This document shows, piece by piece, positions 279-21,812 of a stretch of 25,207 nucleotides of DNA (its first letter is position 1; each line of letters starts with the position of its first letter). Position numbers and translations under genes: made by a program. A model generated the notes under the pieces. It was not told the origin of the DNA. It was given only the letters and a program-made list of their open reading frames with translations, and did not search any database. The stretch spans positions 1-25,207 of the IMG/VR virus record IMGVR_UViG_3300008110_000509; one strand, written 5' to 3'. The stretch comes from a virus.

Positions 279-653
279 ATGACTACCTTTGTTGGCTTTA
301 ACACACAGAATCAATACAAAAAATTCACGCTAGTAGATTTTGAATTGGTCAAACGCGATCTCTTGAATGCGTTTAACATTCGCCAAGGTCAACTGCCTGG
401 TCGTCCAGAGTATGGCACAGTGTTGTGGAATTATCTGTTTGAAAATCAAGTTGATGCTGTTCAACAAGGTATTATTAATGAAGTGCAACGAGTGGCAGGC
501 GGCGATCCTAGAGTATTCATCAGCAACATCAATGTGTACCCACAAGAAAATGGCATGCTGATTGAATTAGAAATTCAAACTGTAGGTGGAGTCAATGCTG
601 AAATACTAAACGTATTCTTCAATCAAGTCAGCCGGTCGGCTAGCTATGTATAA
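279..653 (+). CDS. gp25: gp25-like baseplate wedge protein (GPW/gp25 family)
   Basis: This 124-residue protein is close in length to T4 gp25 (132 residues). It carries the family's central signature: LPGRPEYGTVLWNYLFE at about residues 39-55, i.e. the Arg-Pro-Glu-x-Gly-Thr-x-Leu pattern followed by a helix. In T4-like phages gp25 is a small component of the baseplate wedge, joins the wedge core formed by gp6, gp7 and gp53, and helps connect it to the sheath. The immediate downstream neighbour is a gp6-like wedge protein, which supports the call. The ATG at 279 is the only sensible start because the conserved region begins soon after it. No clear ribosome-binding sequence precedes it. Confidence 0.9.
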   Translation: MTTFVGFNTQNQYKKFTLVDFELVKRDLLNAFNIRQGQLPGRPEYGTVLWNYLFENQVDAVQQGIINEVQRVAGGDPRVFISNINVYPQENGMLIELEIQTVGGVNAEILNVFFNQVSRSASYV

Positions 654-3700: not shown

Positions 3701-4156
3701 ACAGAATATCAAGGACTTAATGAATACAAGATGATCAGTGACAACATTATTTTGAATTCTGTAGTGTTTAAACCATTGTTTGGACCTAAAGCAGCCACAA
3801 CATTGCAAGCCACAATCAAAGTTATTCGTGCTCAAAATTCCACAGCCAGCACTAGCGAAATACAAAGTTCTGTGTTGGCAGCTATGAATGAATATTTTAG
3901 CATTGACAAATGGGGATTTGGCGATACATTCTATTTTTCAGAACTGGCGGCGTACCTGCACAGATATCTTGGAACCATAATCAGTTCAGTGGTATTGGTA
4001 CCACTAGACACACAAAAATACTTTGGCGACATGTACGAAGTAAGAGCAGAACCCAGTGAAATATTTGTTAACGGCGCTACCATTGACAATATTGTTGTGA
4101 TTGATGCATTGACCAGTACTAATTTGCGTACTGCACCTGGTAGCGGAGTAATTTAA
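710..4156 (+). CDS. gp6: gp6-like baseplate wedge protein, enlarged
   Basis: The protein has 1148 residues; T4 gp6 has 660. The N-terminal part (about 1-130, with DFETLRKSFTDYLRLYYPE and ALAFRTDLNTRENYLDTAE) is the typical start of gp6 in T4-like phages. Baseplate-J-type signatures follow: FGDGVF at about 341-346 and RAPARYYTQNRMVNGEDY at 417-434. The C-terminal part (about 1040-1148) with DKWGFGDTFYFSELAAYLHRY also fits gp6. The middle, about 470-1000, is extra relative to T4 and contains an Asp-rich loop at 828-839. In T4, gp6 dimers form the ring that ties neighbouring wedges together, so this is an internal virion protein. The stop overlaps the next start as TAATG, implying coupled translation. 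The start at 710 is chosen because the family signature begins within 30 residues and a late promoter and AAGG precede it. Confidence 0.9.
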   Translation: MAKTTRQTAIFGVEDWKQIYQTYREADFQSYDFETLRKSFTDYLRLYYPETFNDYIESSEYIALLDVIAFMGQALAFRTDLNTRENYLDTAERRDSVTRLANLVSYTAKRNTAAQGLLKAFSVTTTENVVDYNGVNLANVTVNWADPTNFDWLEQWNAIVNSSLVSSQKIGRPANRQTILGVDTNEYGINLVPGFLPVIPYTATVDGVNMPFEATTSSTAGRDYIYEPSPKPNATFNILYRNDKLGYQSANNGFFFFFKQGTLQNQDFNLAERIANRTVNINIDGVNNEDRWLFQLDNVGSISREWTFTENIYSAAAEQTATLRPIFSVTSRTNDQITMVFGDGVFSEIPVGIFRAYVRASNGLQYIINPAEMQNVVLPISYIDRNGNLQTITFTCGITQPVSNAQSRESIDAIKQRAPARYYTQNRMVNGEDYNLFPFTLYNSIIKSKAVNRASIGTSRYLDLVDNTGKYSSTNTFSSDGAMWEYNVLPSILFSWINRNEIADLIANQVQPAIIDTTFKQFYYANFPRIPVNTGVTALSTWNQSTTLANETTGYFQNALGEPVMVGTSSSTAFKYVVQKSLIKFIPPVINGQPYYFDANNRLKQGLPTRPEDHLEIWASPLAIVGDGSNNGIGNLTNGQGPIALNNFVPTGAVVDSIIPVFLTDLTPSIREQMTQQILLYRNFGLGYDNNGAITGTAGTWYVITSTNLDADATWSQAYAGNTSGNNLDASWMVQFVAVDNKYTITFRGLAYYFGSVLQTRFFFYGNQKIYDSRTGTTIKDFINVLAVNTKPDSSSPLPGDIYTTITGQPVESDGYVDDFQVLISYRDSDSDGVPDNPDFFNEIVAPTVNPNLKLVFLQQTVDFDNLQRYLLVEPGVVNSDYPTYDNIELVKFQYSPGQVFYAYTDELFFTLTVNTAGVRVITQAAEGDWIARTGRQALYFQYRHNSPLTNRIDPGTTNIIDLYVVTQSYYTAYQNWIKDTTGTVTEPDVPTIDELSTEYQGLNEYKMISDNIILNSVVFKPLFGPKAATTLQATIKVIRAQNSTASTSEIQSSVLAAMNEYFSIDKWGFGDTFYFSELAAYLHRYLGTIISSVVLVPLDTQKYFGDMYEVRAEPSEIFVNGATIDNIVVIDALTSTNLRTAPGSGVI

Positions 4157-7100
4157 TGGCACGAGTACGCAGTGTAGATTTTCTTCCTGAGATTTTTCAG
4201 ACGGACGCCAACAAGCAATTTTTGGCTGCTACTTTGGATCAGTTGATTCAAGAGCCAAAGTTTAAAAAGACTCAAGGTTATATTGGCCGCACAGTTGGCC
4301 CAGGTGTAAATCCCAACGACAAGTATGTGATTGAGCCCGACAAAACTCGCGCTGACTATCAACTTGAGCCAGGTGTGATTAGTGTTGATCCTGCAGACAA
4401 TAACAAAATAATAGATGCTATTACGTATCCAGGCATAACTGATACACTGGTATATCAAGGTAGTCCATCAACACAACCCAGTCGACTGTATACTAGTGAT
4501 TATTATAGTCTTGATCCGTTTATGGATTTTGACACGTTTGTAAACTTTAGTCAGTATTACTGGGTGCCAGATGGCCCTGATGTAGTTACTGTGCAATCAC
4601 CGGGTGTGGCGTTGAGCCAAAATTTTGTTGTAGACAGAGCTGATGGAGTTTACACATTTTCAGGATTAACTGGTAACAACCCTACTATAAATTTAGTTCG
4701 TGGCGGCAACTACACTTTTCAAGTATCGCAAAACAACAAAGAAACTGTTAATTACAAAGTAACACGCACTAATGTTACCAGCTTTAACATTGACAACGAA
4801 CCCAATGCACCAATTGTTTTAATTCGTGGTAACACATACACTTTTAACCTGTTTGTGCAAGGCGACTTTCCGTTCTGGATCAAAACTGCACCTACAACAG
4901 GCACAGGTGATCAGTATAACTCAGGTGTCACACGTAATGGATCAGTAGTAGGCACAGTGACTTTTACTGTACCCCAAGACGCACCTAATACACTATATTA
5001 TTCTTGTCAGACTCAAAGTCTCATGAGAGGTACCATCAGTGTGATTGATGCCCAACCTGGTGACGGTCCAGGATTTTGGATTCAGACAGCACCCGGAATC
5101 AATGGATTAGATCCTACTACTCCAAACGTAACTTCTAGATCCATCTACGGTGTTACCAACAATGGTATTGATCTTGGCACACTTAATTTTAACGTACCAC
5201 AAAAAACAGCTCAAGACTTTTTCTACAATCTTGTTAGCATTGGGTCGGTTGATCTTGTTACTGATTTGTTTTTCAATAATATCGACGGAGCCAGACTAGA
5301 TCAATTTATAGCTACCTATGGTGGCATTGATGGCATCACTGATCTCAACACACGAACATTGGTATTTGCAAACAGTGTGGGTGATCCTTCTACTAATTAT
5401 TATAGCATATGGCGTATAAGTTATGTTGTTGTGGGTGCCTTTACCTATCTATCATTAGGCAGCATTCAAAATATAGCTAATTTAGAAAAATGGACCATAC
5501 GATATGGCACTGAATATTCCAGCACACAGTGGTACAAAAACCAAACTGGATATATTGTTGAAATGCCTCAGCTTACAGCCAAGTTGGATACATTGTATTA
5601 CCAAGATGGCACCGACCCAGAAATTTTTGGCACCATCCGTCTAATTGAACAAGACAATAGCAGTACAATATACATCGAAGATGTGTTAGGAAAAACCAAC
5701 TACACCAGTCCAAATGGTGTTACATTTACCAATGGATTAAAAGTTCAATTTTTAGGTAATGTATCACCTGCCAGCTACGCCACTGGGTCTGCTGCATTTA
5801 TTTGCACAAACACCGCAGCAGGTATCAATCTCATTACCACTGAATCCACAGCAGGCATGGCAGTAGGTCAGGAAATTATTTTTAATGGCACAGCATTCGG
5901 CGGAGTAAACACTGGTGTTACCTATTACGTTCAAACAGTGTTTAGCAGCAGTCAATTTAAAGTAAGCACAACCAAAGATGGCACAGCAGTGACGTTGACC
6001 TCGGCCAATGGTAGTATGGTTGCAACTACCAGTCAAAATCCGCAATACTATGTTAGTGGTGTAGGCACAGCAATTGAACTATTGCCAGTAACAAATTATA
6101 TCACTCCTGAAGAGTATGCGTCTGCTGACGATGTTGATTATCTCACAATCAACCGAGACAGTCCAGATCTAAATGCATGGAGTCGTAGCAATCGATGGTT
6201 CCACATTGATGTGCTCAATGCTACAGGTGCTTACAATGACACGCCTGTGGTAATAGACAATGACCGTAAAGGCAAGCGGCCAATTATACAATTCCGTGGT
6301 GGCATCAGATTGTATAACATGGGCACAGATGCCAAGCAACCAGTGAACGTAATTGATTTTACTGAAACTGATGCATTCAGTAACATTGAAGGCAGCACTG
6401 GATATTCAGTGAATGATTACACATTTGTCAATGGCAGTCGTGTGATATTTGCTGCTGACGAAGATCAGAATGTACGAAGCAAAATTTACGTGGTAAATTT
6501 TATTGTACCAGATACTGTGGCACCATTGATTACACAACCTATTATTAATTTGGTAGAAGCATCAGATGGAGAAATACTTGTTGATCAAACTACCACATGC
6601 ATTAGTGGTTCGCAAGTTGGCGTTACCTACTGGTATGATGGTGTAAATTGGTTAGAAGCACAACAAAAAACTGCTGTACAACAGGCACCACTGTTTGACA
6701 TATTTGATGCTGACGGAGTGAGTTTGGCCAACAGAACTACATATCCTAGTTCAACATTTACAGGCACAAAATTGTTTAGTTATGCCACAGGCTCAGGACC
6801 TGCTGATCCAGTGCTACAACTAGTGCTCAAATATCTTTCATTGACCAATGTAGGAGACATTGTATTTGATAATAATTTATACTCAGATTCATTTGTGTAT
6901 GTGATTGACAATGTTAGCACCACAGCACCAATTAGTTCAGGATTTGTTTATGAATATGCATCAAGAACTGTGTTTGAACGATTGATTGGTTGGCAAACAG
7001 CAGTAGTGCCTACACTAATGAGACAGCAGTTTAAATTTGTTTATAATTTACAACCATTACAATTGGATGTTGCTGTTCAGTCAAACATTGTGACAACTGT

Positions 7101-10100
7101 GCCTAGCGTAACAGTGTTTGTGGGATCTATCTTCCAAGATCCAGGCACATACACAGTGGCCACTACTGCCAATACCACAACTATTACATTACATACTGCA
7201 CACGTTGTGGGAGATGTAATTGAAGTTGAAGTGCTTAGTGACCAAATCAGCCAAGTGGCTTTTTATCAAGTTCCGTTAAATCTCAATAACAATCCATTGA
7301 ATGCCAACAGCCCAAGTTTTACATTAGGTACATTGCGCACTCACTATGACAGCATTTGTCAAAATTTAACTACATTCTCAGGATCAATTAATGGTGCAAA
7401 TAACACTAGAGACCTTGGTAATGTTATTCCTTACGGTCAACTGATTTTACAACAAAGTTCTCCATTGACCCTAGCTGGATACTTTATGAGATCTCAGCAG
7501 TACAATATTTTTGGTGCAATAGAATACAACAGCAGAGAATATCAAAAGTACAAAAATCAACTGCTAGAAGCAGTGACCAGACAGACCATTCAATACGAAA
7601 CTACATCACAAGTACTTGATACTGTGATAGCTGAAATCACACTAGGACGAACAGAAAATAATCCATTCTATTGGAGTGACATGCTGCCTGCTACCGCAGT
7701 ATTCACCACAACAACTTACACTGTGAGCTATATTACCAGGCAGGTGTTTGACACTGTACAAGTTTACAACTACACATCAGCCAACTACCTTGGCATGAAT
7801 GTGTATGTAAATGACCAAATCTTAACTAGAGATTTAGAATACACAGTTGCCACAGATGGTCCACGAATTGAGATTTTGATTACACTGGCCATTGGTGATA
7901 CAATTACCATTCAAGAATACAGTGCTACCTATGGCACCTATGTGCCTAATACTCCAAGCAAAATGGGATTGTATCCTGCATGGCGACCAGAAATTTTGAC
8001 AGTCAAGACCAGCGCAGGTGAACAACTGGTTATACTAGGACATGATGGCAGTCAGACACCTATCTTTGGTGATATACGTGACGAAGTGTTGTTAGAATTT
8101 GAAACTAGAATTTATAACAATATCAAGTTAGATAACAATCCTGTGCCACTGGATGTTGTGGATGTGTTGCCAGGACAGTTTAGAGATACTGGTTATAGCT
8201 ATGCTGAGATCAATACCATATTAGAAACTAGTTTCTTGACTTATGTAGGCTGGAACAAGTTGGATTACACCACGCAAAATTACAATGCTGGTAATCCATT
8301 TACCTACAATTATAGTTCTTCAACTAACAAACTTAACAATGAAAATTTGTTGGGTGCCTGGCGTGGTATCTATCGTTATTTTTACGATACCCAACAACCA
8401 GAACTAACTCCTTGGGAGATGATTGGGTTTTCAGTTCAACCCGACTGGTGGGAAATAACATACGGCCCGGCACCTTATACATCTGACAACATGAACTTGT
8501 GGGATGATTTGGAACTAGGGCTTGTGAGAGATCCGGTTGGCGCATACACACTACCAGCTTATGCAAGACCTGGCTTGCTATCTGTGCTACCAACTGACAG
8601 TGCAGGCAATCTGTTAGCGCCATTGGAATCAGTTGTAGGTAGATACAATCCACAAACGTGGCAGAAAAGCTGGGCACCCGGTGATGGCGGTCCGGTAGAA
8701 GCTTCGTGGTGGAATTCAAGCGATTACCCATTTGCAGCCATGCGGTTGCTGGCGCTTACTCGTCCAGCAAAATTCTTTGCATTGTTTGCTGACAGAGACT
8801 TGTACAAGTATAGCACAGAATTTGATCAGTATCTTTATAATGGTCGTTACAGATTAGACGCCAACGGCGTGCAAGTGTATGGTGACGGTACCAGCAAAGC
8901 CAGTTACATCAACTGGATTGTGGATTACAATCGCCTCACAGGTACTGACAGCACTGTGGCATTAGAAACAGATTTGCAAAATTTAGATGTACGTTTGTGT
9001 TACAGAATGGCTTCATTCTCAGACAAACAGTACTTGAAAATTTACACTGAAAAATCTAGTCCTAGATCAACCAACGCCTCGTTGCAGATTCCTCCAGAAA
9101 GCTATCAACTGTTGGTATACAAAAATCAACCATTTGACAGATTAATTTACAGTTCTGTGGTGATTCAAGTTGTGGATGGTGGCTACGCAGTATTTGGCTA
9201 CAGCACTGCAAGACCATATTTTAACACATTCACCAGTATTCCAGTTGGACAATTTGAAACATACAGTGTGGCCAGTAAAACTATACAAGTACCTGCCAAT
9301 TACACAGACACTGTCACTCAAATTCCCTATGGGTTTGTATTCACAACTGAAAGTGCTGTAGCCAATTTCTTGTTGAGTTATGGAAAGTTTTTAGAATCAC
9401 AAGGCTTTGAATTTACCAATCAGACCAATGGTTACTTGATGACCTGGTCACAAATGGTGTACGAGTTCATATACTGGAGTCAACAAGGCTGGGGCAATGG
9501 CAGCTTAATCAATTTGAATCCGTTGGCTATAGGACTGTCTGTGTTCAAGGAACAAGCAGTAGTAGACAACATAACATCACAAACTGCGGAACATGTAATA
9601 TTAGACCAGAATCGTAAAGATTTCCCCACACGTGATCTCAATATTGTGCGAGTTGACAACAACTTTACTATCCAACCTTTGAACAATCAAAGTTTGAGTT
9701 TTATTGACATGCGTTATACCAGCTTCGAAAGTATGATTGTGTTGGATAACGCCAGTTTGTTTGGCGACTTAATTTTTGAACCTATAACAGGCGCTAGACA
9801 AAGCAGATTGTATATTGCTGGCACTACTTCTACAGAATGGAACGGCAGTGTTGATGCGCAGGGATTTATATTAAATCAAAACAACATTCCTGCATGGACT
9901 GGTTTAAAAACTTATGCCAAAGGTGAAATAGTAACATACAAAGGTGCATACTGGAGTGCTGCCACAATTGTACAACCCAGCACCAAGTTCAATTACAATG
10001 ACTGGAATCAAAGCGATTACACAGTTATTGAACAAGGATTATTGGCCAATCTTGCAAACAAAGCTGACCAACTCAGCAACAGTTATGACATCAACTCGGC

Positions 10101-13100
10101 AAATTTAGTCAGTGACAATGATTTGTTAAGTTATGGCTTGATAGGATTTAGACCTAGACAGTATATGGCTGCACTAAATCTTGATGATGTTAGTCAGCTT
10201 AACATTTATAGAGAATTCCTTGGAACCAAAGGAACTAAAAATAGTGTTGACTTGTTTGGGCAAGCTAAGTTCAACAAAGAAGTTGCCGAATACAAAATTT
10301 TTGAAAACTGGGCAATACAACGTGGGGTATATGGTGCAAACGCCAATCGCAGTTTCTTTGATTTGAGACTGAATCGTGCATTGTTATCAAGCAATCCTAG
10401 CTTGGTACAGGTTGTGGTGCCAAACGAAACAAGCACTGCTGATCAACAAATTTTCCTTAGCGATGTATGGAAAAGTAGTTTCCCGTTGACCACTCCTGCA
10501 CTTTTACCAACCACAACCACATTGCCAACAGATATATCTTTGCCTAGTGCAGGATATGTTAATATTGATGACGTTGATATCACAGTTTTTGATTTAGATG
10601 ATCCTGCAAATCTCAATGCCAACATCAATTCTATTATAGTTGGAACCAGCATCTGGGTTGCCAAAGTAAACAACTATGACTGGAACATTTATCGTGCAGA
10701 AGCTGTGCCAGGAACTATACAACACGTTTGTGACAATCTTAATGGAACCAGCAGAGTTATATTCAGCAAACAACATGGATTGATAACTGGCAATCGATTG
10801 ATCATAAGATTTTTTGATACAGAAGTCAATGGTGTTTACACCGTATTAAGTGTTCCCAATTTGACCACTGTGAACATTGCATTGGATCTTGCAGGTGATC
10901 GCACTGTGGTTGACGGCACAGGCATTGGGTTTACCCTAGAAACCATGCGTGTAGACCAGGCCAGCAACGTGATAGATTTGCCTTACGCACAACAATTTTT
11001 ACCCGGCGCAAAAGTTTGGGTTGATGATAACGGTGACGGATTATGGGAAGTATTAGAAAAACAAAATCCTTTTACTGACCGAGCAGTGTTAGCGCCAGTG
11101 TTGCTTGATGCCACAGAACAATACGGAGCATCTGTAGCACAAGCCACAAATCGAGCAGCATTGTTTGTTGGTAGTCCGCGTTATGGGTTTGGATTGGGTA
11201 CTGCCAAGGGCGGTATCTATTTGTATGTAAGAAATGCCGGCGACCAGTATGTGCCAATCAGTCCCATTGGCGGACAAGACACTGTTCTTACATTAAGCAC
11301 AACAGGCCTGCGCGGGTATGGCAATGCTGTAGATGCTGGCAATCAAACATTTGCTGTTGGCGGAGCAAGCGCCAGCTTGGGACCAGCACCTGCAGGATCA
11401 CCTGTCAACAACGGATACGCTGTAGTATTATGGCGTGACCCCACAGCTGGGGCAGCCAACACCAGTCCTTGGTCTCAACCACAGTTGTTGACATTACCTG
11501 GAACAACACCAACCACCACCCCAGGTGCTGGTGAATTTGGTTATAGTGTGGCTATGAGTCTTGACGAACGCTGGTTGTACGTTGGTGCACCTGGACTGAA
11601 CACAGTGTATGCATACGGACAAGTGCAATGGCAAGATCAAGTTTTACAATACATTGCCAACGGCACTAGCAATACTGCTGACATCAGCGATACTATACAA
11701 ATAAACAATGCCAATCAAATTGCTGTGCTTAAAAACAATGCAGTATTGACGCTCACAACAGATTACACTGTAGACGCTGGTTTTACCACTGTGACATTTA
11801 CTGCAATGCCTGCTGCTGGTGATGTTATTACAATTTCAAGAAAATATGTCAAAACATTTAGTCCAAGTGGTACTACATATTCATTGTCACCATGGTTGTT
11901 TACAGCCACAGCAAACAACATTTATTCATTCTCAGTCAGTGTAGATAGTGTATTACAACGTCCTAACATTGATTACACCTACTCTGGCACCACACTGACA
12001 TTTGCCAGTGCCCCAAGTAATGATATTATAGTGACATCGCAGTTTTATTATCAACTGGCTGGCACCATTACACCAACAGTGGCAGTTGCTGCTGGTGCAA
12101 GATTTGGTGCAAGCGTTCAGTGTTCTACAGATGGACGTCAAGTTATAATTGGCTGTCCTAACGCCACAGTTAACACATTGACTGAAGCAGGTTCAGTGTA
12201 TGTGATTGACAGAAATGTACAAAAGTTCATTCGTCAGGACGATAGTTCAAACACGTATACTGTGTTAGGAACTGTGGCAGCACCAATTAGTGTTCTAGTT
12301 AATAATGTATTTTTAACCAATCAAACTGACAGTATTGTTGGCGCTGATAACACATTCTCAGTTTCAGGCAATAACATCACCATCAACAAAGATTTGTTTG
12401 TAGGCGACGTAATTGAAATTGAAATCAATCAGTTTGTGCAACAGCAATTGATCACAGAGAACACAGTAGCCGAATTCACAAACTACGGCCAAAGTTTGGA
12501 TTTGTGTCCATACAACTGTAGTTTGTATGTGGGTGCGCCGCAAGATTCTAGTATTGTTTGGAAAGGTGGTGTGGTTGAGCGCAGTGTAAACCAAGCCAGA
12601 AGTTATGGTACAATTACTTCTACTATTGCCAATCCTAGTCTGACTGCTGGGCAAACATTACGAGTAAACAATGTTGACATTGCAGTACCAGCTAGTCCAA
12701 ACAATAATATTGCAGGCCTTGCTGCTGCAATAAATGGTGGAGAAGCAGGCACCAATTCGGGTGCTCCTAATGCTACCGCAGTAGTTTCCTCAACAGGCTA
12801 CCTGACTATTTTTGTGACCAACACTGCTGCTGCACCAGACGGCAACAAATTACAAGTGGCACCGGGTTCAGTTGGCTCAGTGTTTTCTGCACTTGGATTT
12901 GTAACTTTTGAATACACACAAACTATTGCAAGCCCACGACCAGTAGAGTTTGGTCAATTTGGTTACTCAGTGGCTGTAAATGACACTGCACTTAATCTTG
13001 TGGTTGGATCACCAAAGGGCACACTATATTCAGTTATGGTGTTTGATTATAATACCACAACAGAAAAACCAGGAACAACGTTTGATGGTAACTCTACCAT

Positions 13101-16100
13101 ATTCTTTAGCTCAGTGGTTATGGTCTTGGTCAATGGTTCTTATGTTACTCGTTCATTGGTACAGGCAGGTGCAGTTTATACATATGACTATTTGCCTAGC
13201 AATAGCCTCAGCGTAGCCAATCCGGGTAAGTTTATATTTGGACAGCAAGTTGAAACTAATGGAGTAAATTATCTGGATCAATATGGTTATGCAGTAAGTT
13301 ACAATTCTGGTGTTTTGGTAGCCACAGCGCCCGGCGAAGACTTTGAAGATAGCACATTCAGCGAATACGGTGCTGCTTATATATTTGAAAATCCCACGCA
13401 ACGTTTAGCTTGGGAGCCAATTGCTATTCAACAACCAGTTGTTGATATAAGACTGTTGACTAGTGTGTACATGTATGACAGAATTTCTTCAGCCAAGAGT
13501 CAGTTCTTTGATTTCTTTGATCCACTGCAAGGAAAAGTATTAGGGGCCGCTCAAGAAAATATAGATTTTATCAGTGCAATTGACCCTGCTGCTTACAATG
13601 TTGGTCCTGTAAACAATCGCGGTGACACTTGGGCGGCTACACATGTTGGAGAAGTTTGGTGGGACATCAGCACAGTAAGATTTATTAATCCAAATCAGGA
13701 CAATCCAACTTATGCCAGCCGTCGTTGGGGACAAGTATTCCCCGGCAGCACAGTGGATGTATATCAATGGATTTCTAGCACAGTACCACCTGCAAATTAC
13801 GCCGGAGTTGGCACACCATACAGCATCATTAGTTATGTAGTAAGCACTCGATTAAATCAGTCTGGAACATTTGTTACTGAATATTATTTCTGGGTGCGTG
13901 GCATAACTGAAACTGCATCACGGGCAGGCAAGACACTTAGCGTGGCCACAGTGGCATCTTATATTCAAGAACCAAAAGCCAGTGGCATTAGTTATATTGC
14001 ACCAATTAACTCTAGTACCATTGCAATCTACAATGCAATTGAATACATTTTGGCAGCAGACACTATTATCAGTGTGGAGTTTGATCAAGTTCTTACAGAG
14101 GCTAATGTACACACTGAATACGAATTAATTGCACAAGGGCAAGATGATGCTTTCTTAAGTGATAATTTGTATCGCAAACTACAAGACAGTTTTTGTGGAG
14201 TAGACACAACTGGCAATAAAGTTCCAGATCCAAATCTTAACTACGCTCAACAATATGGGGTTCAATTCCGACCACGCCAGAGTATGTTTGTGGATCGATT
14301 TTTAGCGTTAAAAAATTATATTCAACGTGCCAATGATGTATTTGCATTGTATCCTATAACAGAAATTAGAAGTTTTGCATTATTAAACAGTGCAGAACCT
14401 GAACCTAGTGCAACCAGCGGCGAGTGGAATTTGAGAGTGGCTAATTTAGAAATACTAGGATTCCAAGACATATATGCTGTGCCATTGGGTTACAAATATC
14501 TTGTGGTTACCAATAGTTTGAATCGTGGATTATGGACCATTAATGAAGTACAAGCTACAAATGATCCAACAGTGAGAGAATTGGTGTTAAGTCGTGTGCA
14601 AAATTATAACACGCCACAATACTGGAGTTACGTTAACTGGTATCAGCCAGGATATAATTCTAGTTCAATTATTGTGGCCGAAGTACCAAACTATGCTACA
14701 TTGGAAACATTAAGTGTGGCCATTGGATCAAGTGTCAAAGTCACTGCCAATGCACAAGGCAAGTTTGAAATCTATCTGCGTACCGATACAGGATGGGATC
14801 GAGTAGGCCTTGAAGATGGCACCATCGAAATTTCTGCTGAAATTTATGATTATGCGCTAGGCAGATTTGGATTTGACGTTGAAGTATTTGATGCACAATA
14901 TTTTGATCAAGAACCAGTGATTGAAACACGTAAAATTATTCAAGCTATCAATGAAGAATTGTTTGTTGACGAATTGAAAATTGAAAGAAATCAGTCACTT
15001 ACTCTGATGTTTAACTTTATTTTAAGCGAGTTACTAGCACCAGAATGGTTGATTAAAACCAGTTTGATTGATGTTCAACACAAAGTTAGAGATCTGGTGC
15101 CATATCAAAATTACATTCGTGACAATCAAGACTTTGTGAGTGAGTACATTCAAGAAGTCAAACCCTATCATGTACAAGTTCGTGAATTCAATCTAACATA
15201 TGATGGCATTGATAGTTTCCAAGGCAGTTTGACTGACTTTGATTTGCCAGCATACTATGACACAAATTTGACCATACCACAGTATGTAAGCCCAATTTTG
15301 TTACCTTATGAACATGCTACAGCTCAGGCATTTAACACACTCAGTGACACTGCTCCTAATAGCACTCTGTGGCCAGAGTGGCCTTACAGTCAATGGTTTG
15401 ACAACTATTTGCTACATGTAGATTCAATTACAGTTACCAATCAAGGCACAGGCTATACCATTGCGCCTACAGTGTTGATTGTACCGGCTGAAGGTGACAC
15501 TGGGTCTGGAGCAGAAGCCACAGCAGTGCTAAACTCATCAGGCAATGTCGTATCTATAACATTGATCAATGGCGGTTCAGGCTACCGCTCAACTCCAACT
15601 GTGGCGTTTGATGGTGGCAATGGCACAGGCGTTGCTGCATACCCTCAGATGGACAACGGACTTGTGCGCAGTTTCCGCACAGTTCTCAAATACGACCGTT
15701 ATCAATATCAAACATCTGTATTAACCTGGAGTTCAGATGGCACATACGAAAATGGCACACTGGTTCGGTATGATGATCGTGTATGGCAAGCTGACAGTGC
15801 AGACGGCAGTAGTGCGGTGATTGGCCCAGTCTTTAATCTTGAAGATTGGACACTGGTAGATGCAGCCACACTCAGTGGTGTCAATCGTACCATGGGATTT
15901 TATGTTCCGGGCGTAAACGAATTTGGATTAGATTTGCAATTGCTAGTAGATGGCACCAGCTATCCAGGTGTGCAAGTTTGGGGAGACTATTTCTTGGGCA
16001 GTGCTCCGGCAAGTCCTACCTTGGTGTGTACTGCTACCAATGCAACTACCAACGAAATCACATGTGTTCAAACAGCAAGATTGTCGCTTGGTGATCCAAT

Positions 16101-19100
16101 CAGATTCTACGGCACGGTGTTTGGTGGCATCGTGGCTGGTACTGTTTATTATGTAAATGCCATTGTTGATGCAACACATTTTACAGTTGCCTTAGCACCA
16201 GATGGGTTAACATTTAGCCTGACTTCTGCCACCGGCACCATGATTGCAGACGTGCCAGAACCAATAGATGCTACCTATGCCAGCAGCTTTACTGATATGT
16301 TTTTGGGACTACGTCCAACTGATATCAATGTAGATGGTGGCGAATTTATTGGACCATACGAAGGACATGCTCCAGAAGAATTGGTCAACGGATCTGAATA
16401 CGACACACTAGATTTCCGTGTGTATACTCGTCCAGGTGCAGACTGGACAGGTGACGGACATGGCTTTGCTATAGGCACATTCAATTATGTTTATGACGGC
16501 AATGCCTTATACTGGGGCACATTGGTGCAAAATCCGGTAAACATTGAAGTTTCTAATGAAAATACAAATAGTGATCTCACACCAGACGTAGACTATGTTG
16601 TGGATTGGGAGGCCCAAACTATAACAGCCGTTCCTGGCGGTGGTATTGCAAATGGTGATGTGATCAGTGTTACTGCTTACGAAATGGGTGGTGGTAATCA
16701 GTTGTACCGCGGAAATTACAACGGAACAGAAGTCAATAATTCTGTAGTAATTCCTGTAAATGCCAATGAAATTTATGAACTGGTATTGTTTGTAAATGGT
16801 ACAAATGTGTCAGGTGCCACCTGGACATCTTATGCTAACAGTGTGCCTTGGACTTACGAAAATTCTTATGCAGCACAAACTGTTGTTGAAGATAATCAAT
16901 TGTATTATCGAGCGTTGCAATCAGTGCCGCCGGGAATTTTATTAGATGATCCATTGTATTGGATAGAATTTGTTCCAACTGTGCAATCAACAGTTAGGTT
17001 TCCATATCCAATGGCCAATGTAAAATATGCAACCACAACATCGTTATTTGGAACTTATGGCTATGTGTACAACAATGGCACAAACGGTGTTGGGGCAACA
17101 CTAACAAATTACAACGTATTTGATGATTACACTGCGTTAACAATTGACGGCGTTATTCCATTGGTAGGAGATCGCATACTTGTCAAGGATGAAACTGGCA
17201 TATACACCAATGACACCACGCAAAGTGCAACGTTTAATGGTATCTATACTGTTACTAGAGTTGGTAATAGCACAATTGGTTGGATATTGACCAGAGCAAC
17301 AGATTTTGTTGATTCTCTAGATATTCCTAGCGCAATCACCCTTGTTACATCAGGATCAACCAATGCTGCCACAAGATGGGTCTGCACATCAAATCCGTCT
17401 ATCTCTGTTGGAACCACTGAGATTGATTGGACTCGATTTATTGGTACCGAAGCACCATATGGTCCAGGCGATGGAATTTCTATCACTGTCATGGGCGTTG
17501 AAGATCCACAATACAGCTGGAGCACAGCAGTAACACAGTATCGTACCGCTACTGAGTCTGATAGATTGACCAACAGTATCAATCTTGACAACAGCATGCA
17601 AGGAACCAATGTGGCCAACCTAGTGGTCACTGTTAATGGCAAACGCCTACAACCACCTGAGGGTATTGAATGGACTGGTGACGGAACCAGCAGCAGTTTT
17701 GGATTGCCACAGCGCGGTGGTGGCTATCCACAATCTGCTATCAATGCTTACACTGATATTCAAGTTTGGGTAGACAATGTCCTACAAGTACAAAATTATG
17801 GTGCTATTGTAGGTAATTATTATGTGACCAATTATGATGGTAGTAATACTCCAGGCCGACAAGTGGTATTTTTTACTCCACCTGCTGATGGCGCACAGAT
17901 TTTAATATCAGTTAGCACCATTGCACAATACACAGTTGTGATAGGATCGCCCAACAGATTGTTAATAACTCCGTTGCTTAATTTAGGCGATCAAATTGCA
18001 ATTACCAGTTGGAATGATACATCACAACAAGATCCGTTAACTTTGGTATTTGTAGGCCCGGTGGTTACTGGCCTCACAGTGATTGAGCCATATGACAGCA
18101 CTGGATACAGTTTTCCAGATGCAGCCAATGACACATCAGGCAGCTTTGACTTCAGCATAGGCGTGGCTATTCCAACTAATGATTTTAATCTAGGTCGTGA
18201 AGGAATATTGGCCAACAGATTATGGGTTACATTGGATGGCAATAGATTGTATCCAGGCGTGGATTATGCAGTGCAAGGACAATATTTGATACTGGGCAGT
18301 GGTATTATTGGCTCGGCACAAGTGCTGGCAGTAACTGAATTTACTGAGAGTGTTGTGCCAGGTGCTATGGCATTTAGATTGTTCCAGGACATGCGTGGAG
18401 TGCAAACTACGTTCCGTATCACTGCCTCAACAACAACTACAGTAGCTCAGGCAGTGTCAGCTGTAGCAGACATTATCTACGTCGCAAATGTCGCAGCCCT
18501 TAGTGAGCCCAACTTGACTGATGGTATTTTTGGTGTAGTTACAATCGATGGTGAACGCATACTATATCGCGAAAGAAATTTGTCTACAAATTCAATCACT
18601 GGGTTACAACGAGGTACTGCTGGCACAGCCGCTACCAGTCATTCAGTCAATGCAGAAGTGTATGACATGGGTCTTGGTAACAGACAACCTCAAGAGTTTC
18701 AAAACTATATTGTAAGCGATACCAGTACGGGTGATGGATCTACCACAATATTTTACGCTCCTACAATTGAATTTGATTTAAGTGACAGTTCTTTTGAAGT
18801 CAACAGTATTGAAGTATATGTCGGCGGCAACCGTGCTAGAGTAGGTTACTATGCTGGGCAGTTTGTGATAGGACAAACTTACACTATTGCTAGTGTTGGC
18901 AGCACCAACTGGCATGCTATTGGCCTGCCAAGCGATGTTTATCCATTGCCGGGCGTGGTATTTACAGCTACAGGGGCAGGGTCAGGAACAGGTGTTGCTG
19001 GCACCAGTTTGGCCAGCAACTACTACCAAGTAACCGATTACAATCCACTAGCAATACAGTTCCTTACAGCCAACGATTTGCCTGCTCCAGGTGCAGGTGT

Positions 19101-19224
19101 TGAGGTGGTGATATTACAGCGTAGAGGTGTAACTTGGTATGCTCCGGGTAACGGAACACCTAGCAACGGCGAAGCACTACAGATCACTGACACAAATGCT
19201 GCAAGGTTTTTACGTGGATTATAA
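4156..19224 (+). CDS. giant modular baseplate/tail structural protein (5022 residues)
   Basis: A single uninterrupted frame of 15,069 bases starts inside the gp6-like stop codon (TAATG). Regions in order, by residue: N-terminal domain with FLPEIFQTDANKQFLAATLDQ (9-29); two cupredoxin-like repeats (176-361); a Trp/Tyr-rich conserved core near 1400-1600 (PDWWEITYGPAPYT); a sugar-binding-like motif (1914-1950); a Ca-loop-like DDNGDG (2290-2295); seven FG-GAP-like blades (2322-3080) with inserted modules; a helical segment with WLIKTSLIDVQHKVR and IQEVKPYHVQVREF (about 3625-3680); GSGY-PTV repeats (3756-3835); two more sugar-binding-like motifs (3858-3898, 4232-4269); a fibre-type GVGATLT/LVKD segment (about 4290-4435); and several fibre-type modules to the end. 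No signal peptide or membrane segment is apparent. Position after gp6 matches T4 gene 7, and the helical segment may be the gp7-like core, but that equivalence is inference. Marine T4-like phages are known to carry very long genes here. Likely role: outer wedge and fibre-carrying scaffold, perhaps host-surface contact. Confidence 0.85.
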   Translation: MARVRSVDFLPEIFQTDANKQFLAATLDQLIQEPKFKKTQGYIGRTVGPGVNPNDKYVIEPDKTRADYQLEPGVISVDPADNNKIIDAITYPGITDTLVYQGSPSTQPSRLYTSDYYSLDPFMDFDTFVNFSQYYWVPDGPDVVTVQSPGVALSQNFVVDRADGVYTFSGLTGNNPTINLVRGGNYTFQVSQNNKETVNYKVTRTNVTSFNIDNEPNAPIVLIRGNTYTFNLFVQGDFPFWIKTAPTTGTGDQYNSGVTRNGSVVGTVTFTVPQDAPNTLYYSCQTQSLMRGTISVIDAQPGDGPGFWIQTAPGINGLDPTTPNVTSRSIYGVTNNGIDLGTLNFNVPQKTAQDFFYNLVSIGSVDLVTDLFFNNIDGARLDQFIATYGGIDGITDLNTRTLVFANSVGDPSTNYYSIWRISYVVVGAFTYLSLGSIQNIANLEKWTIRYGTEYSSTQWYKNQTGYIVEMPQLTAKLDTLYYQDGTDPEIFGTIRLIEQDNSSTIYIEDVLGKTNYTSPNGVTFTNGLKVQFLGNVSPASYATGSAAFICTNTAAGINLITTESTAGMAVGQEIIFNGTAFGGVNTGVTYYVQTVFSSSQFKVSTTKDGTAVTLTSANGSMVATTSQNPQYYVSGVGTAIELLPVTNYITPEEYASADDVDYLTINRDSPDLNAWSRSNRWFHIDVLNATGAYNDTPVVIDNDRKGKRPIIQFRGGIRLYNMGTDAKQPVNVIDFTETDAFSNIEGSTGYSVNDYTFVNGSRVIFAADEDQNVRSKIYVVNFIVPDTVAPLITQPIINLVEASDGEILVDQTTTCISGSQVGVTYWYDGVNWLEAQQKTAVQQAPLFDIFDADGVSLANRTTYPSSTFTGTKLFSYATGSGPADPVLQLVLKYLSLTNVGDIVFDNNLYSDSFVYVIDNVSTTAPISSGFVYEYASRTVFERLIGWQTAVVPTLMRQQFKFVYNLQPLQLDVAVQSNIVTTVPSVTVFVGSIFQDPGTYTVATTANTTTITLHTAHVVGDVIEVEVLSDQISQVAFYQVPLNLNNNPLNANSPSFTLGTLRTHYDSICQNLTTFSGSINGANNTRDLGNVIPYGQLILQQSSPLTLAGYFMRSQQYNIFGAIEYNSREYQKYKNQLLEAVTRQTIQYETTSQVLDTVIAEITLGRTENNPFYWSDMLPATAVFTTTTYTVSYITRQVFDTVQVYNYTSANYLGMNVYVNDQILTRDLEYTVATDGPRIEILITLAIGDTITIQEYSATYGTYVPNTPSKMGLYPAWRPEILTVKTSAGEQLVILGHDGSQTPIFGDIRDEVLLEFETRIYNNIKLDNNPVPLDVVDVLPGQFRDTGYSYAEINTILETSFLTYVGWNKLDYTTQNYNAGNPFTYNYSSSTNKLNNENLLGAWRGIYRYFYDTQQPELTPWEMIGFSVQPDWWEITYGPAPYTSDNMNLWDDLELGLVRDPVGAYTLPAYARPGLLSVLPTDSAGNLLAPLESVVGRYNPQTWQKSWAPGDGGPVEASWWNSSDYPFAAMRLLALTRPAKFFALFADRDLYKYSTEFDQYLYNGRYRLDANGVQVYGDGTSKASYINWIVDYNRLTGTDSTVALETDLQNLDVRLCYRMASFSDKQYLKIYTEKSSPRSTNASLQIPPESYQLLVYKNQPFDRLIYSSVVIQVVDGGYAVFGYSTARPYFNTFTSIPVGQFETYSVASKTIQVPANYTDTVTQIPYGFVFTTESAVANFLLSYGKFLESQGFEFTNQTNGYLMTWSQMVYEFIYWSQQGWGNGSLINLNPLAIGLSVFKEQAVVDNITSQTAEHVILDQNRKDFPTRDLNIVRVDNNFTIQPLNNQSLSFIDMRYTSFESMIVLDNASLFGDLIFEPITGARQSRLYIAGTTSTEWNGSVDAQGFILNQNNIPAWTGLKTYAKGEIVTYKGAYWSAATIVQPSTKFNYNDWNQSDYTVIEQGLLANLANKADQLSNSYDINSANLVSDNDLLSYGLIGFRPRQYMAALNLDDVSQLNIYREFLGTKGTKNSVDLFGQAKFNKEVAEYKIFENWAIQRGVYGANANRSFFDLRLNRALLSSNPSLVQVVVPNETSTADQQIFLSDVWKSSFPLTTPALLPTTTTLPTDISLPSAGYVNIDDVDITVFDLDDPANLNANINSIIVGTSIWVAKVNNYDWNIYRAEAVPGTIQHVCDNLNGTSRVIFSKQHGLITGNRLIIRFFDTEVNGVYTVLSVPNLTTVNIALDLAGDRTVVDGTGIGFTLETMRVDQASNVIDLPYAQQFLPGAKVWVDDNGDGLWEVLEKQNPFTDRAVLAPVLLDATEQYGASVAQATNRAALFVGSPRYGFGLGTAKGGIYLYVRNAGDQYVPISPIGGQDTVLTLSTTGLRGYGNAVDAGNQTFAVGGASASLGPAPAGSPVNNGYAVVLWRDPTAGAANTSPWSQPQLLTLPGTTPTTTPGAGEFGYSVAMSLDERWLYVGAPGLNTVYAYGQVQWQDQVLQYIANGTSNTADISDTIQINNANQIAVLKNNAVLTLTTDYTVDAGFTTVTFTAMPAAGDVITISRKYVKTFSPSGTTYSLSPWLFTATANNIYSFSVSVDSVLQRPNIDYTYSGTTLTFASAPSNDIIVTSQFYYQLAGTITPTVAVAAGARFGASVQCSTDGRQVIIGCPNATVNTLTEAGSVYVIDRNVQKFIRQDDSSNTYTVLGTVAAPISVLVNNVFLTNQTDSIVGADNTFSVSGNNITINKDLFVGDVIEIEINQFVQQQLITENTVAEFTNYGQSLDLCPYNCSLYVGAPQDSSIVWKGGVVERSVNQARSYGTITSTIANPSLTAGQTLRVNNVDIAVPASPNNNIAGLAAAINGGEAGTNSGAPNATAVVSSTGYLTIFVTNTAAAPDGNKLQVAPGSVGSVFSALGFVTFEYTQTIASPRPVEFGQFGYSVAVNDTALNLVVGSPKGTLYSVMVFDYNTTTEKPGTTFDGNSTIFFSSVVMVLVNGSYVTRSLVQAGAVYTYDYLPSNSLSVANPGKFIFGQQVETNGVNYLDQYGYAVSYNSGVLVATAPGEDFEDSTFSEYGAAYIFENPTQRLAWEPIAIQQPVVDIRLLTSVYMYDRISSAKSQFFDFFDPLQGKVLGAAQENIDFISAIDPAAYNVGPVNNRGDTWAATHVGEVWWDISTVRFINPNQDNPTYASRRWGQVFPGSTVDVYQWISSTVPPANYAGVGTPYSIISYVVSTRLNQSGTFVTEYYFWVRGITETASRAGKTLSVATVASYIQEPKASGISYIAPINSSTIAIYNAIEYILAADTIISVEFDQVLTEANVHTEYELIAQGQDDAFLSDNLYRKLQDSFCGVDTTGNKVPDPNLNYAQQYGVQFRPRQSMFVDRFLALKNYIQRANDVFALYPITEIRSFALLNSAEPEPSATSGEWNLRVANLEILGFQDIYAVPLGYKYLVVTNSLNRGLWTINEVQATNDPTVRELVLSRVQNYNTPQYWSYVNWYQPGYNSSSIIVAEVPNYATLETLSVAIGSSVKVTANAQGKFEIYLRTDTGWDRVGLEDGTIEISAEIYDYALGRFGFDVEVFDAQYFDQEPVIETRKIIQAINEELFVDELKIERNQSLTLMFNFILSELLAPEWLIKTSLIDVQHKVRDLVPYQNYIRDNQDFVSEYIQEVKPYHVQVREFNLTYDGIDSFQGSLTDFDLPAYYDTNLTIPQYVSPILLPYEHATAQAFNTLSDTAPNSTLWPEWPYSQWFDNYLLHVDSITVTNQGTGYTIAPTVLIVPAEGDTGSGAEATAVLNSSGNVVSITLINGGSGYRSTPTVAFDGGNGTGVAAYPQMDNGLVRSFRTVLKYDRYQYQTSVLTWSSDGTYENGTLVRYDDRVWQADSADGSSAVIGPVFNLEDWTLVDAATLSGVNRTMGFYVPGVNEFGLDLQLLVDGTSYPGVQVWGDYFLGSAPASPTLVCTATNATTNEITCVQTARLSLGDPIRFYGTVFGGIVAGTVYYVNAIVDATHFTVALAPDGLTFSLTSATGTMIADVPEPIDATYASSFTDMFLGLRPTDINVDGGEFIGPYEGHAPEELVNGSEYDTLDFRVYTRPGADWTGDGHGFAIGTFNYVYDGNALYWGTLVQNPVNIEVSNENTNSDLTPDVDYVVDWEAQTITAVPGGGIANGDVISVTAYEMGGGNQLYRGNYNGTEVNNSVVIPVNANEIYELVLFVNGTNVSGATWTSYANSVPWTYENSYAAQTVVEDNQLYYRALQSVPPGILLDDPLYWIEFVPTVQSTVRFPYPMANVKYATTTSLFGTYGYVYNNGTNGVGATLTNYNVFDDYTALTIDGVIPLVGDRILVKDETGIYTNDTTQSATFNGIYTVTRVGNSTIGWILTRATDFVDSLDIPSAITLVTSGSTNAATRWVCTSNPSISVGTTEIDWTRFIGTEAPYGPGDGISITVMGVEDPQYSWSTAVTQYRTATESDRLTNSINLDNSMQGTNVANLVVTVNGKRLQPPEGIEWTGDGTSSSFGLPQRGGGYPQSAINAYTDIQVWVDNVLQVQNYGAIVGNYYVTNYDGSNTPGRQVVFFTPPADGAQILISVSTIAQYTVVIGSPNRLLITPLLNLGDQIAITSWNDTSQQDPLTLVFVGPVVTGLTVIEPYDSTGYSFPDAANDTSGSFDFSIGVAIPTNDFNLGREGILANRLWVTLDGNRLYPGVDYAVQGQYLILGSGIIGSAQVLAVTEFTESVVPGAMAFRLFQDMRGVQTTFRITASTTTTVAQAVSAVADIIYVANVAALSEPNLTDGIFGVVTIDGERILYRERNLSTNSITGLQRGTAGTAATSHSVNAEVYDMGLGNRQPQEFQNYIVSDTSTGDGSTTIFYAPTIEFDLSDSSFEVNSIEVYVGGNRARVGYYAGQFVIGQTYTIASVGSTNWHAIGLPSDVYPLPGVVFTATGAGSGTGVAGTSLASNYYQVTDYNPLAIQFLTANDLPAPGAGVEVVILQRRGVTWYAPGNGTPSNGEALQITDTNAARFLRGL
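4681..5238 (+). repeat. tandem cupredoxin-like domains in the giant protein
   Basis: Residues 176-295 read like a plastocyanin-type domain: a VRGGNYTFQV strand, VLIRGNTYTFNLF, PFWIKTAP, a GVTRNG turn, FTVPQDAP, then YYSCQTQSLMRG. In copper-binding relatives the ligands are His before Pro-Phe, then Cys-x-x-His-x-x-Met. Here Cys284 and Met290 remain, but the first His is Phe238 and the second is Gln287. Residues 296-361 repeat the second half (FWIQTAP, YGVTNNG, LNFNVPQ, FFYNLV) and keep no ligand. The fold is probably present, while a normal type-1 copper site is not. Confidence 0.65.
5821..6012 (+). repeat. copy 1 of a duplicated ~65-residue module
   Basis: Residues about 556-619 of the giant protein (NLITTESTAGMAVGQEI, FGGVNTGVTYYV, F-V, LTSANGSM) align with residues about 3962-4030 in the same order and spacing, more than 10 kb downstream. 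This is an in-protein duplication. I do not know a function for the module. Confidence 0.65.
11119..13400 (+). repeat. seven FG-GAP-like propeller blades in the giant protein
   Basis: Seven segments follow the integrin-alpha-type blade pattern (aromatic-Gly-x-Ser/Ala-Val, then hydrophobic-VG-Ala/Ser-Pro, then Gly-x-hydrophobic-Tyr). They begin near residues 2322 (YGASV, FVGSP, GGIYLY), 2384 (YGNAV, FAVGG), 2460 (FGYSV, YVGAP), 2647 (FGASV, IIGCP, GSVYVI), 2774 (YGQSL, YVGAP), 2932 (FGYSV, VVGSP) and 3041 (YGYAV, VATAP, GAAYIF). Other beta modules are inserted after blades 3, 4, 5 and 6. Seven is the usual number for a closed propeller. Blade 2 is the weakest match. Confidence 0.65.
15421..15640 (+). 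repeat. paired GSGY-PTV beta repeats in the giant protein
   Basis: Two units of the form V-x-S-I-T-V/L-x-N-x-G-x-G-Y-x-x-x-P-T-V occur one after the other (SITVTNQGTGYTIAPTV and SITLINGGSGYRSTPTV). Each is followed by a Gly-rich GTG/GSG-Ala stretch. This repeat type is common in long surface and tail proteins. Its function here is unknown. Confidence 0.6.
16039..16245 (+). repeat. copy 2 of a duplicated ~65-residue module
   Basis: This segment encodes TNEITCVQTARLSLGDPI, FGGIVAGTVYYV and LTSATGTM, matching the copy at 5821-6012. Shared landmarks are Gly-Gln/Asp-x-Ile, Phe-Gly-Gly, Gly-x-x-Tyr-Tyr-Val and Leu-Thr-Ser-Ala-x-Gly-x-Met. Confidence 0.65.
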
Positions 19225-20053: not shown

Positions 20054-21163
20054 ATGGCATATACAATTAATCTAACAAACGGCACAACGTTTGCTACCAT
20101 AACAGATGGTACTGTAAACACTGCCAGTTCGATGACGTTGATCGGCAAAAATTATGCTGGGTACGGACAGTTCCTAGACGACAATTTTATTCACTTGTTG
20201 GAAAATTCAGCTAACACAACAGCACCTGCTGCTCCGCTTACTGGACAACTATGGTGGGACAGCACCAATACACTATTGAAAGTTTATTCAGGAACAACCT
20301 GGAAAGTTATTAGCGGTGCCACATCATCATCTACAGCACCAAGCCCTGCTGTACAAGGAGACTTGTGGTATGATACCACAAATCAGCAGTTAAAAGTTTG
20401 TTCAGTAGCTCCTAGCACATTTATTGTGGTTGGTCCAGCATATTCAAGTATCGAAGGACAATCTGGCGCTATACCCCTTACCATTGGCGATGGTACCACA
20501 GGTTATGTTGTCACAGGATTGTATGCTGCTGGTGACTTGGTTGGTATTATTAGTAAAGTTGCTGACTTTACACCAGCTGGTAATAGTAGTGCATACGTTG
20601 GATTGGGATTTCCTAAAATTTACAAAGGCTTTACAGTCTGGAATATTGGCAACAGCAGCGGCAACATCAGCAACCCAGCCAACATCACGTTAGCAGTTGC
20701 TGGAAGTGTTGTTGAAACTGTGGCTAGCACAGGCGTTTTTGTTACTGGATTAGTTAGTGCCACTGGCAATATTACTGCTCCAAACTTTATTGGCAATGTA
20801 ATTCCACCTGCCGGCGGCTCAGTTAGTACTACTGGGAATATTACAGGTGGCAATCTTTTAACTGGTGGAATAATGTCAGCAACCGGCAATGCTACAGGCG
20901 GCAATCTTATTACTGCTGGCCTTGCTACAGTAACTGGAAACGTCCAAGGTGGTAACATAAGAACTGCTGGTCTGGTCAGCGCAACTGGTAATATAACTGG
21001 CGGCAATGTGTTATTTGGATCTGGCATTGTGAGTGGCACAGGCAACATCACTGGTGGAAACGTGCTATTTGGTTCTGGAATAGTTTCTGGCACAGGTAAT
21101 ATTACAGGGCAGAGTTTCTGGTGTAGGCAACGTCAGTGCTGGATTTTTCTTGGGCAACGGTAG
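20054..21163 (+). CDS. tail fibre protein, N-terminal part (frame interrupted)
   Basis: The N-terminal 120 residues (MAYTINLTNGTTF, LIGKNYAGYGQFLDDNF, LTGQLWWDSTNTLLKVYSG, and a second GDLWYDTTNQQLKV) are the anchor type found in tail fibre genes of marine T4-like phages. From about residue 215 the sequence becomes Gly/Asn/Thr-rich, with repeats built on SATGNITGGN that probably form an intertwined trimeric beta shaft. The last 18 residues (from Gln353, QSFWCRQRQCWIFLGQR) are Cys/Trp/Arg-rich and unlike the shaft. Reading one base later from 21107 instead restores RVSGVGNVSAGFFLGNG, which continues into the next frame. The intact protein would have about 585 residues. I conclude that this is one fibre gene broken by an apparent extra base. 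It has its own late promoter and ribosome-binding sequence. Confidence 0.85.
   Translation: MAYTINLTNGTTFATITDGTVNTASSMTLIGKNYAGYGQFLDDNFIHLLENSANTTAPAAPLTGQLWWDSTNTLLKVYSGTTWKVISGATSSSTAPSPAVQGDLWYDTTNQQLKVCSVAPSTFIVVGPAYSSIEGQSGAIPLTIGDGTTGYVVTGLYAAGDLVGIISKVADFTPAGNSSAYVGLGFPKIYKGFTVWNIGNSSGNISNPANITLAVAGSVVETVASTGVFVTGLVSATGNITAPNFIGNVIPPAGGSVSTTGNITGGNLLTGGIMSATGNATGGNLITAGLATVTGNVQGGNIRTAGLVSATGNITGGNVLFGSGIVSGTGNITGGNVLFGSGIVSGTGNITGQSFWCRQRQCWIFLGQR
20999..21106 (+). repeat. two 54-base tandem units in the fibre shaft
   Basis: Units 20999-21052 and 21053-21106 encode the same 18 residues, GGNVLFGSGIVSGTGNIT, without any amino-acid difference. Yet 13 of the 18 codons differ, all synonymously. 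A third, changed unit begins exactly at the frameshift position 21107. Confidence 0.9.
21107..21110 (+). other. apparent +1 frameshift site (GGGC) in the tail fibre gene
   Basis: Up to 21106 the shaft repeat is in the frame of the ATG at 20054. From 21111 on, the recognisable fibre sequence is in the next frame. Removing one G of the GGG gives Ile-Thr-Gly-Arg-Val-Ser-Gly-Val-Gly-Asn-Val-Ser-Ala-Gly, a smooth continuation. The present frame ends at TAG 21161-21163. An indel in the source genome, a sequencing or assembly error, or (less likely) programmed +1 shifting would all look like this. Confidence 0.8.
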
Positions 21164-21812
21164 TCAGCTTACTGGATTGAGTTCAGCTGTTAGTGTTACC
21201 AAAATTGAAAACGGTACTTCAGAAGGCAATGTTACATCATCCGGCGGCAATATTGCATTTACAATTGGCGGCATTGGGAATGTCATGGTGCTGGCCACTA
21301 CCGGAGCAATTGTCACTGGATTGAGCACACCAAGTATCGAACACACTGGCACAAATGCTGTGGGCAATATTGGATCCTCTGCTAGTTATTTCAATCGATT
21401 GTTTGCCACAGCCACCACAGCCTTGTATGCTGACGTTGCAGAACGTTTTGCAGCTGATGAAGAACTGGCACCTGGTACCGTAGTTGAACTAGGCGGTACA
21501 GCTGAAATCACAAGATCTCAACAAGATTTAAGCGAAAATGTGTTTGGCGTTATAAGTACAAGAGCAGCCTACCTAATGAATGGCGGCGCCGGAGAAGACG
21601 ACACGCATCCACCAGTTGCAATGACTGGACGTGTTCCGGTGCAAGTAATTGGAGTAGTGCGCAAAGGTGACAGATTGGTATCAGCAGGCTCAGGCATGGC
21701 CAGAGCTGCTCAACCAGGTGAAGCCACAGCATTCAACGTAATTGGACGAGCACTGGTTGACAAACTCACCCCTGGTCCAGGTACAATAGAAGCAATTGTG
21801 ACTATAAAGTAA
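21150..21812 (+). CDS. tail fibre protein, C-terminal part (frame displaced from 20054 gene)
   Basis: The first start-like codon in this frame is TTG 21150, but coding similarity to the fibre begins at 21111, and no ribosome-binding sequence precedes the TTG. I therefore read it as the C-terminal part of the fibre gene, not a separate gene. It starts with the LGNGSQLTGL shaft end and contains the hinge SASYFNRLFATATTALYADVAERF. It then forms a globular tip with GTVVELGG, ENVFGVISTRAAYLMN, and GRVPVQVIGVVRKGDRLVSAGSG, ending in GTIEAIVTIK. This tip type recurs in marine phage fibres and resembles intramolecular-chaperone or self-cleaving tip domains of the G2 peptidase type, though I cannot confirm catalytic residues. 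It probably contacts the host or guides trimer folding. Confidence 0.75.
   Translation: MGNGSQLTGLSSAVSVTKIENGTSEGNVTSSGGNIAFTIGGIGNVMVLATTGAIVTGLSTPSIEHTGTNAVGNIGSSASYFNRLFATATTALYADVAERFAADEELAPGTVVELGGTAEITRSQQDLSENVFGVISTRAAYLMNGGAGEDDTHPPVAMTGRVPVQVIGVVRKGDRLVSAGSGMARAAQPGEATAFNVIGRALVDKLTPGPGTIEAIVTIK

Follow-up and report, generated by a model that had tools for sequence, protein, structure and literature searches.

A giant wedge protein in a baseplate gene cluster

The stretch of DNA analysed here (the window) is a virus sequence of 25,207 bases, in which two baseplate wedge genes are followed by a single giant open reading frame (ORF):

279–653, plus strand: gp25-like baseplate wedge gene (context; profile match)
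710–4156, plus strand: gp6-like baseplate wedge gene (context; profile match)
4156–19224, plus strand: giant baseplate wedge protein of 5022 aa, placed as gene 7 is in T4 (ORF)

The same order, namely gp25-like gene, gp6-like gene and then the giant ORF, is found in the jumbo phages PA5oct and 121Q. In T4, gene 7 comes after gene 6, and the 5022-aa ORF likewise directly follows the gp6-like gene. Comparing the giant protein with T4 gp7 by hhalign gave probabilities of at most 0.6% (profiles A3, A4 and A5), which is a weak test given that a single-sequence gp6–gp6 control also failed (1.5%). The profile of PHROG 10938 (PA5oct gp355, 121Q gp582, Atu_ph07 gp180), whose members share with the window protein both the scaffold and the gene position after gp25 and gp6, matched the protein across this scaffold (E=7e-187 for the N-terminal part and 4e-40 for the C-terminal part). 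Both flanks of the propeller described below consist of this phage wedge scaffold, for which phmmer and profile searches against PDB sequences returned no significant match.

Downstream of the giant ORF, two overlapping ORFs at 20054–21812 are fibre-like candidate genes. They encode a repeat-rich fibre-like protein, with GNITGGN repeats followed by a C-terminal part, and lie in different frames around 21120–21163; this frame break may be genuine or may stem from an error in sequencing or assembly.

Seven FG-GAP blades and their predicted fold

Within the giant protein, seven FG-GAP motifs follow one another in order at aa 2321–3079 (nt 11116–13392), almost exactly where the sequence-only reading had counted seven blades (11119–13400). 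The blades were placed with a leave-one-out HMM and an AlphaFold2 model:

11116–11235, plus strand: blade 1 (FG-GAP), aa 2321–2360
11308–11439, plus strand: blade 2 (FG-GAP; weakest sequence signal), aa 2385–2428
11530–11622, plus strand: blade 3, strands 1–3 (FG-GAP), aa 2459–2489
12097–12213, plus strand: blade 4, strands 1–3 (FG-GAP), aa 2648–2686
12478–12588, plus strand: blade 5, strands 1–3 (FG-GAP), aa 2775–2811
12952–13191, plus strand: blade 6 (FG-GAP), aa 2933–3012, holding a loop (13039–13158) between strands 2 and 3
13276–13392, plus strand: blade 7 (FG-GAP), aa 3041–3079

The Pfam family FG-GAP_2 (PF14312) matched the window protein with 39.2 bits (curated cut-off 23; E=8e-10) and was also matched in 18 of 18 relatives at E<=0.01, while phmmer and profile searches of the propeller against PDB sequences gave nothing significant. 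In the leave-one-out test, six blades were used to find the seventh, with 200 shuffles as a control. Blades 3 (19.8 bits) and 4 (11.6 bits) scored above all shuffles (best 6–9), blade 6 was borderline (6.9 versus 6.8), blades 1, 5 and 7 were found at the correct place but with scores at chance level, and blade 2 was not found. The sequence by itself is thus no proof of all seven blades, and it is the predicted structure that fills in the remainder.

The AlphaFold2 model built with 54 homologues reached a pLDDT of 85.1 and a pTM of 0.88 (82.5–85.1 across five models). It contains neither unrelated folds nor fewer than five blades, but 27 strands in seven blade groups, with four strands each in blades 1–6 and three in blade 7. 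One further element is free to be the 28th strand:

11074–11091, plus strand: N-terminal strand TDRAVL (aa 2307–2312), candidate closing strand of blade 7 (AlphaFold2 model; putative role)

This strand would complete blade 7 by pairing as in other closed propellers. When the model was compared with the PDB using Foldseek, the top matches were nearly all integrin alpha propellers (9b9k, 9ind, 4wk0, 3nid), with E from 1e-9, TM-scores by target reaching 0.64 (about 450 residues) and alignments of 819–847 columns. A shallower model from 18 sequences (pLDDT 72, models 48–72) likewise matched integrin alpha. Together, pTM, TM-scores and strand count fit a closed ring of seven four-stranded blades. 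Alternatively, the true number of blades might be below seven, with some of the FG motifs arising by chance in a beta-rich protein, as the missed blade 2 and the chance-level blades 1, 5 and 7 might suggest; we consider this quite unlikely in view of the high-confidence model, with its four-strand groups in blades 1–6 and its three strands plus a free N-terminal strand for blade 7, the full-length match to integrin propellers, and the existence of compact relatives with seven clear motifs.

Like the integrin alpha propeller (PDB 3NID, 4WK0), the window propeller has seven FG-GAP blades, and its predicted fold agrees with that of integrin alpha from end to end; some integrins also carry a domain inserted in the propeller. 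Unlike integrin alpha, the window propeller shows only about 10% identity, lacks calcium loops and carries inserts in the strand 3–4 loops of three blades, within a protein that has neither thigh/calf domains nor a membrane anchor. Integrin-type Ca2+ loops (DxDxDG type) were present in 0 of 378 blades, and metal-dependent ligand binding of the integrin type is therefore unlikely to carry over.

Insertion site and decoration of the propeller

The propeller is bounded by two tryptophan-containing strands, WEVLEK and AWEPIAI, between which Phosso and Atu_ph07 have only a few residues:

11044–11061, plus strand: left strand of the scaffold hairpin, WEVLEK, bordering the inserted propeller on its N-terminal side (alignment, AlphaFold2 model)
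13411–13431, plus strand: right strand of the scaffold hairpin, WEPIAIQ, bordering the inserted propeller on its C-terminal side (alignment, AlphaFold2 model)

In these two phages the hairpin is empty (WRVLERMDSIDGAIWQEIR). The site reads WRVLERMDSIDGAIWQEIRQETPKID in Phosso and WKVKEFTKVINGDDWNTIREETPMVD in Atu_ph07, compared with WEVLEK, ~780 aa and then AWEPIAIQQPVVD in the window protein, so that the insertion of the propeller is clean and lies at the hairpin tip. All five named phages examined had the hairpin without a propeller, and a plain tblastn search with the propeller against the named phages gave no match. We propose that a single inserted domain spans residues ~2303–3083, namely a seven-bladed FG-GAP propeller without calcium sites, located at the beta-hairpin tip of a conserved scaffold. 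The two ends of a closed propeller lie next to each other, which fits a site of this kind.

We had also considered a single slot filled by a different domain in each phage. This idea was dropped: SCTP-2, Phosso and Atu_ph07 all have an empty hairpin, and their extra material is located upstream of it. The upstream material has a weak LamG-like match in SCTP-2 (E=0.015, below cut-off) and consists of glycine-rich repeats in Phosso and Atu_ph07.

Three adjacent blades carry additional domains in their strand 3–4 loops:

11623–12096, plus strand: insert in blade 3 of two beta modules (11641–11838 and 11851–12048), plus strand 4 (AlphaFold2 model, module profile)
12214–12477, plus strand: insert in blade 4 of one module, of the same type as in blade 3, plus strand 4 (AlphaFold2 model, module profile)
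12589–12951, plus strand: insert in blade 5, a domain of a different type from the blade 3 and 4 inserts, plus strand 4 (AlphaFold2 model)

Structure prediction, Foldseek and homologues back the proposal, made from sequence, of an integrin-alpha-like seven-bladed propeller inside a baseplate protein with domains inserted in its blade loops. As to where these domains lie, the proposal held between blades 3/4 (two modules), 4/5 (one module) and 5/6 (one domain of another type) and failed between blades 6/7, where the linker measures only 28 aa and the supposed insert is the blade 6 strand 2–3 loop, which is also present in insert-free relatives. In integrins, the strand 3–4 loops and the ligand site are on opposite faces, from which we infer that the three inserts should share one face of the propeller.

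The suggestion that the inserts are fibre domains gains a hint from the 3/4 insert, which is similar to CBM_X2 and to the domain that forms the N-terminal attachment part of the T7 tail fibre (Phage_T7_tail; E=5e-4), but both similarities fall below curated cut-offs. The module type shared by the 3/4 and 4/5 inserts recurs in the giant protein at aa 974–1025, 1182–1253 and 4505–4585 and may be a generic building block. Given that many glycan-active enzymes are propellers, the CBM_X2-like similarity could also be taken to favour an enzyme, such as a polysaccharide-degrading domain. We regard this as very improbable, since the structural matches are nearly all to integrins and not to hydrolases, and no enzyme family was matched.

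A wider search yielded 80 relatives, of which 23 had at least three blade hits and 54 had none, which identifies the propeller as a gained or lost module. Several of the propeller carriers are contigs of more than 200 kb, i.e. jumbo phages. The IMG/VR relatives L162, L163 and L171 (FG-GAP_2 E-values of 5e-10, 6e-33 and 3e-21, respectively) have exactly seven FG motifs within about 425–490 aa and no insert-module hits, and L195 (3e-32) retains the 5/6 region and the module between blades 4 and 5 but not the 3/4 insert. The propeller can therefore occur apart from these inserts. In the simplest reading, which draws on these comparisons and not on a tree, the strand 3–4 loops of adjacent blades 3, 4 and 5 would have gained their extra beta domains later, in the lineage of the window. 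Compared with the distant relatives L023–L033, the scaffold shows 58–66% identity, the blades mostly 40–60%, and the 3/4 and 4/5 inserts 32–41% with many indels; judged by these alignments, propeller and inserts diverge faster than the scaffold, although such fast divergence can equally reflect relaxed constraint.

Possible role of the propeller and related systems

The computed results comprise the order of the blades, the fold prediction, the site of insertion, the homologues that lack insert modules and the faster divergence. The reading that they support best, and to which we give slightly better than even chances, is that each baseplate wedge carries the propeller as a platform that would face outward and, with its inserts, hold or contact something variable, be it the host surface or a fibre protein; the outward position and the binding of host or fibre are our extrapolation. 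Receptor binding by the propeller is plausible by analogy, and it fits the faster divergence, with the propellers of known or suspected phage receptor-binding proteins as supporting context (PMC4901313). Alternatively, the propeller might serve architecture alone, as a rigid spacer or as a hub for docking fibres, with its inserts anchoring separate tail-fibre proteins, and make no contact with the host. This main rival has a lower probability and is in keeping with the Phage_T7_tail-like 3/4 insert, its repetition elsewhere in the protein and the candidate tail-fibre-like genes downstream (20054–21812); rapid divergence and varied inserts are more easily reconciled with a partner that varies than with a fixed structural joint, even if a variable fibre would fit too. 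If the contacting platform touches the host, contact might be built into the wedge protein itself, with the integrin-like propeller as a replaceable adhesion head, adjacent blades diversified by small domains and one receptor-binding head per wedge; we offer this version tentatively and think it rather doubtful.

FG-GAP propellers are already known in phages. Literature searches combining FG-GAP with phage baseplate or tail fibre found no papers. The C-terminal seven-bladed propeller of phiKZ gp131 (4GBF) and the five-bladed propeller of the phi11 RBP are precedents for host contact and belong, as the window propeller may, to a baseplate-periphery or receptor-binding protein (PMC4901313); neither domain was among the 50 Foldseek matches listed. 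The 'hemagglutinin' gp213 of Sinorhizobium phage AP-J-162 has been modelled as an integrin-like propeller (PMC11242549), and Atu_ph07 has a similar protein. In these related jumbo phages it is a separate protein of ~375–400 aa, outside the wedge protein. The T4-like Synechococcus phage S-MbCM6 has a giant 7022-aa protein (AFD02696.1), annotated as 'gp8 baseplate wedge protein', part of which matches FG-GAP_2 (E=7e-40). Its FG-GAP repeats are compact and lie beside a LamG domain (E=2e-19), it also has a Reelin-like repeat, and the ~4170 aa tested had no detectable similarity to the window scaffold profile. What is distinctive here is that the propeller is a clean hairpin insertion in a jumbo-phage wedge scaffold, with three adjacent blades decorated.

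The integrin-alpha fold would thus be used within a phage contractile-tail baseplate gene. Existing relatives show the hairpin empty, with a propeller free of insert modules and with a decorated one, so that the steps by which a giant baseplate protein was built up become directly readable, and the 780-residue domain has clean borders suited to expression and host-binding tests.

Phosso gp108, a separate protein of 3692 aa, has at least 14 matches to FG-GAP_2 and may contain several propellers in tandem. The C-terminal third of the giant protein (aa 3720–4700; 15313–18255) varies in length from 717 to 1172 aa among relatives and holds more copies of the insert-module type. Finally, a module of ~40–50 aa (GxTYTIxxVGTTDFxAIGAxSNTVGVxFVATGxGSGTG), without significant match in Pfam or PHROG, occurs in the window at 18871–18996 (aa 4906–4947) and in ORFs of L003, L007, L009 and L029. 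Near relatives have 0–5 copies, placed differently along the giant protein; some lie within blade 6 (L007, L009) or in the 4/5 insert (L029). In total, 116 copies were counted in 66 of 196 proteins, with many redundant loci among them. The module's clean in-frame presence or absence between proteins that are ~90% identical suggests a spreading protein module.
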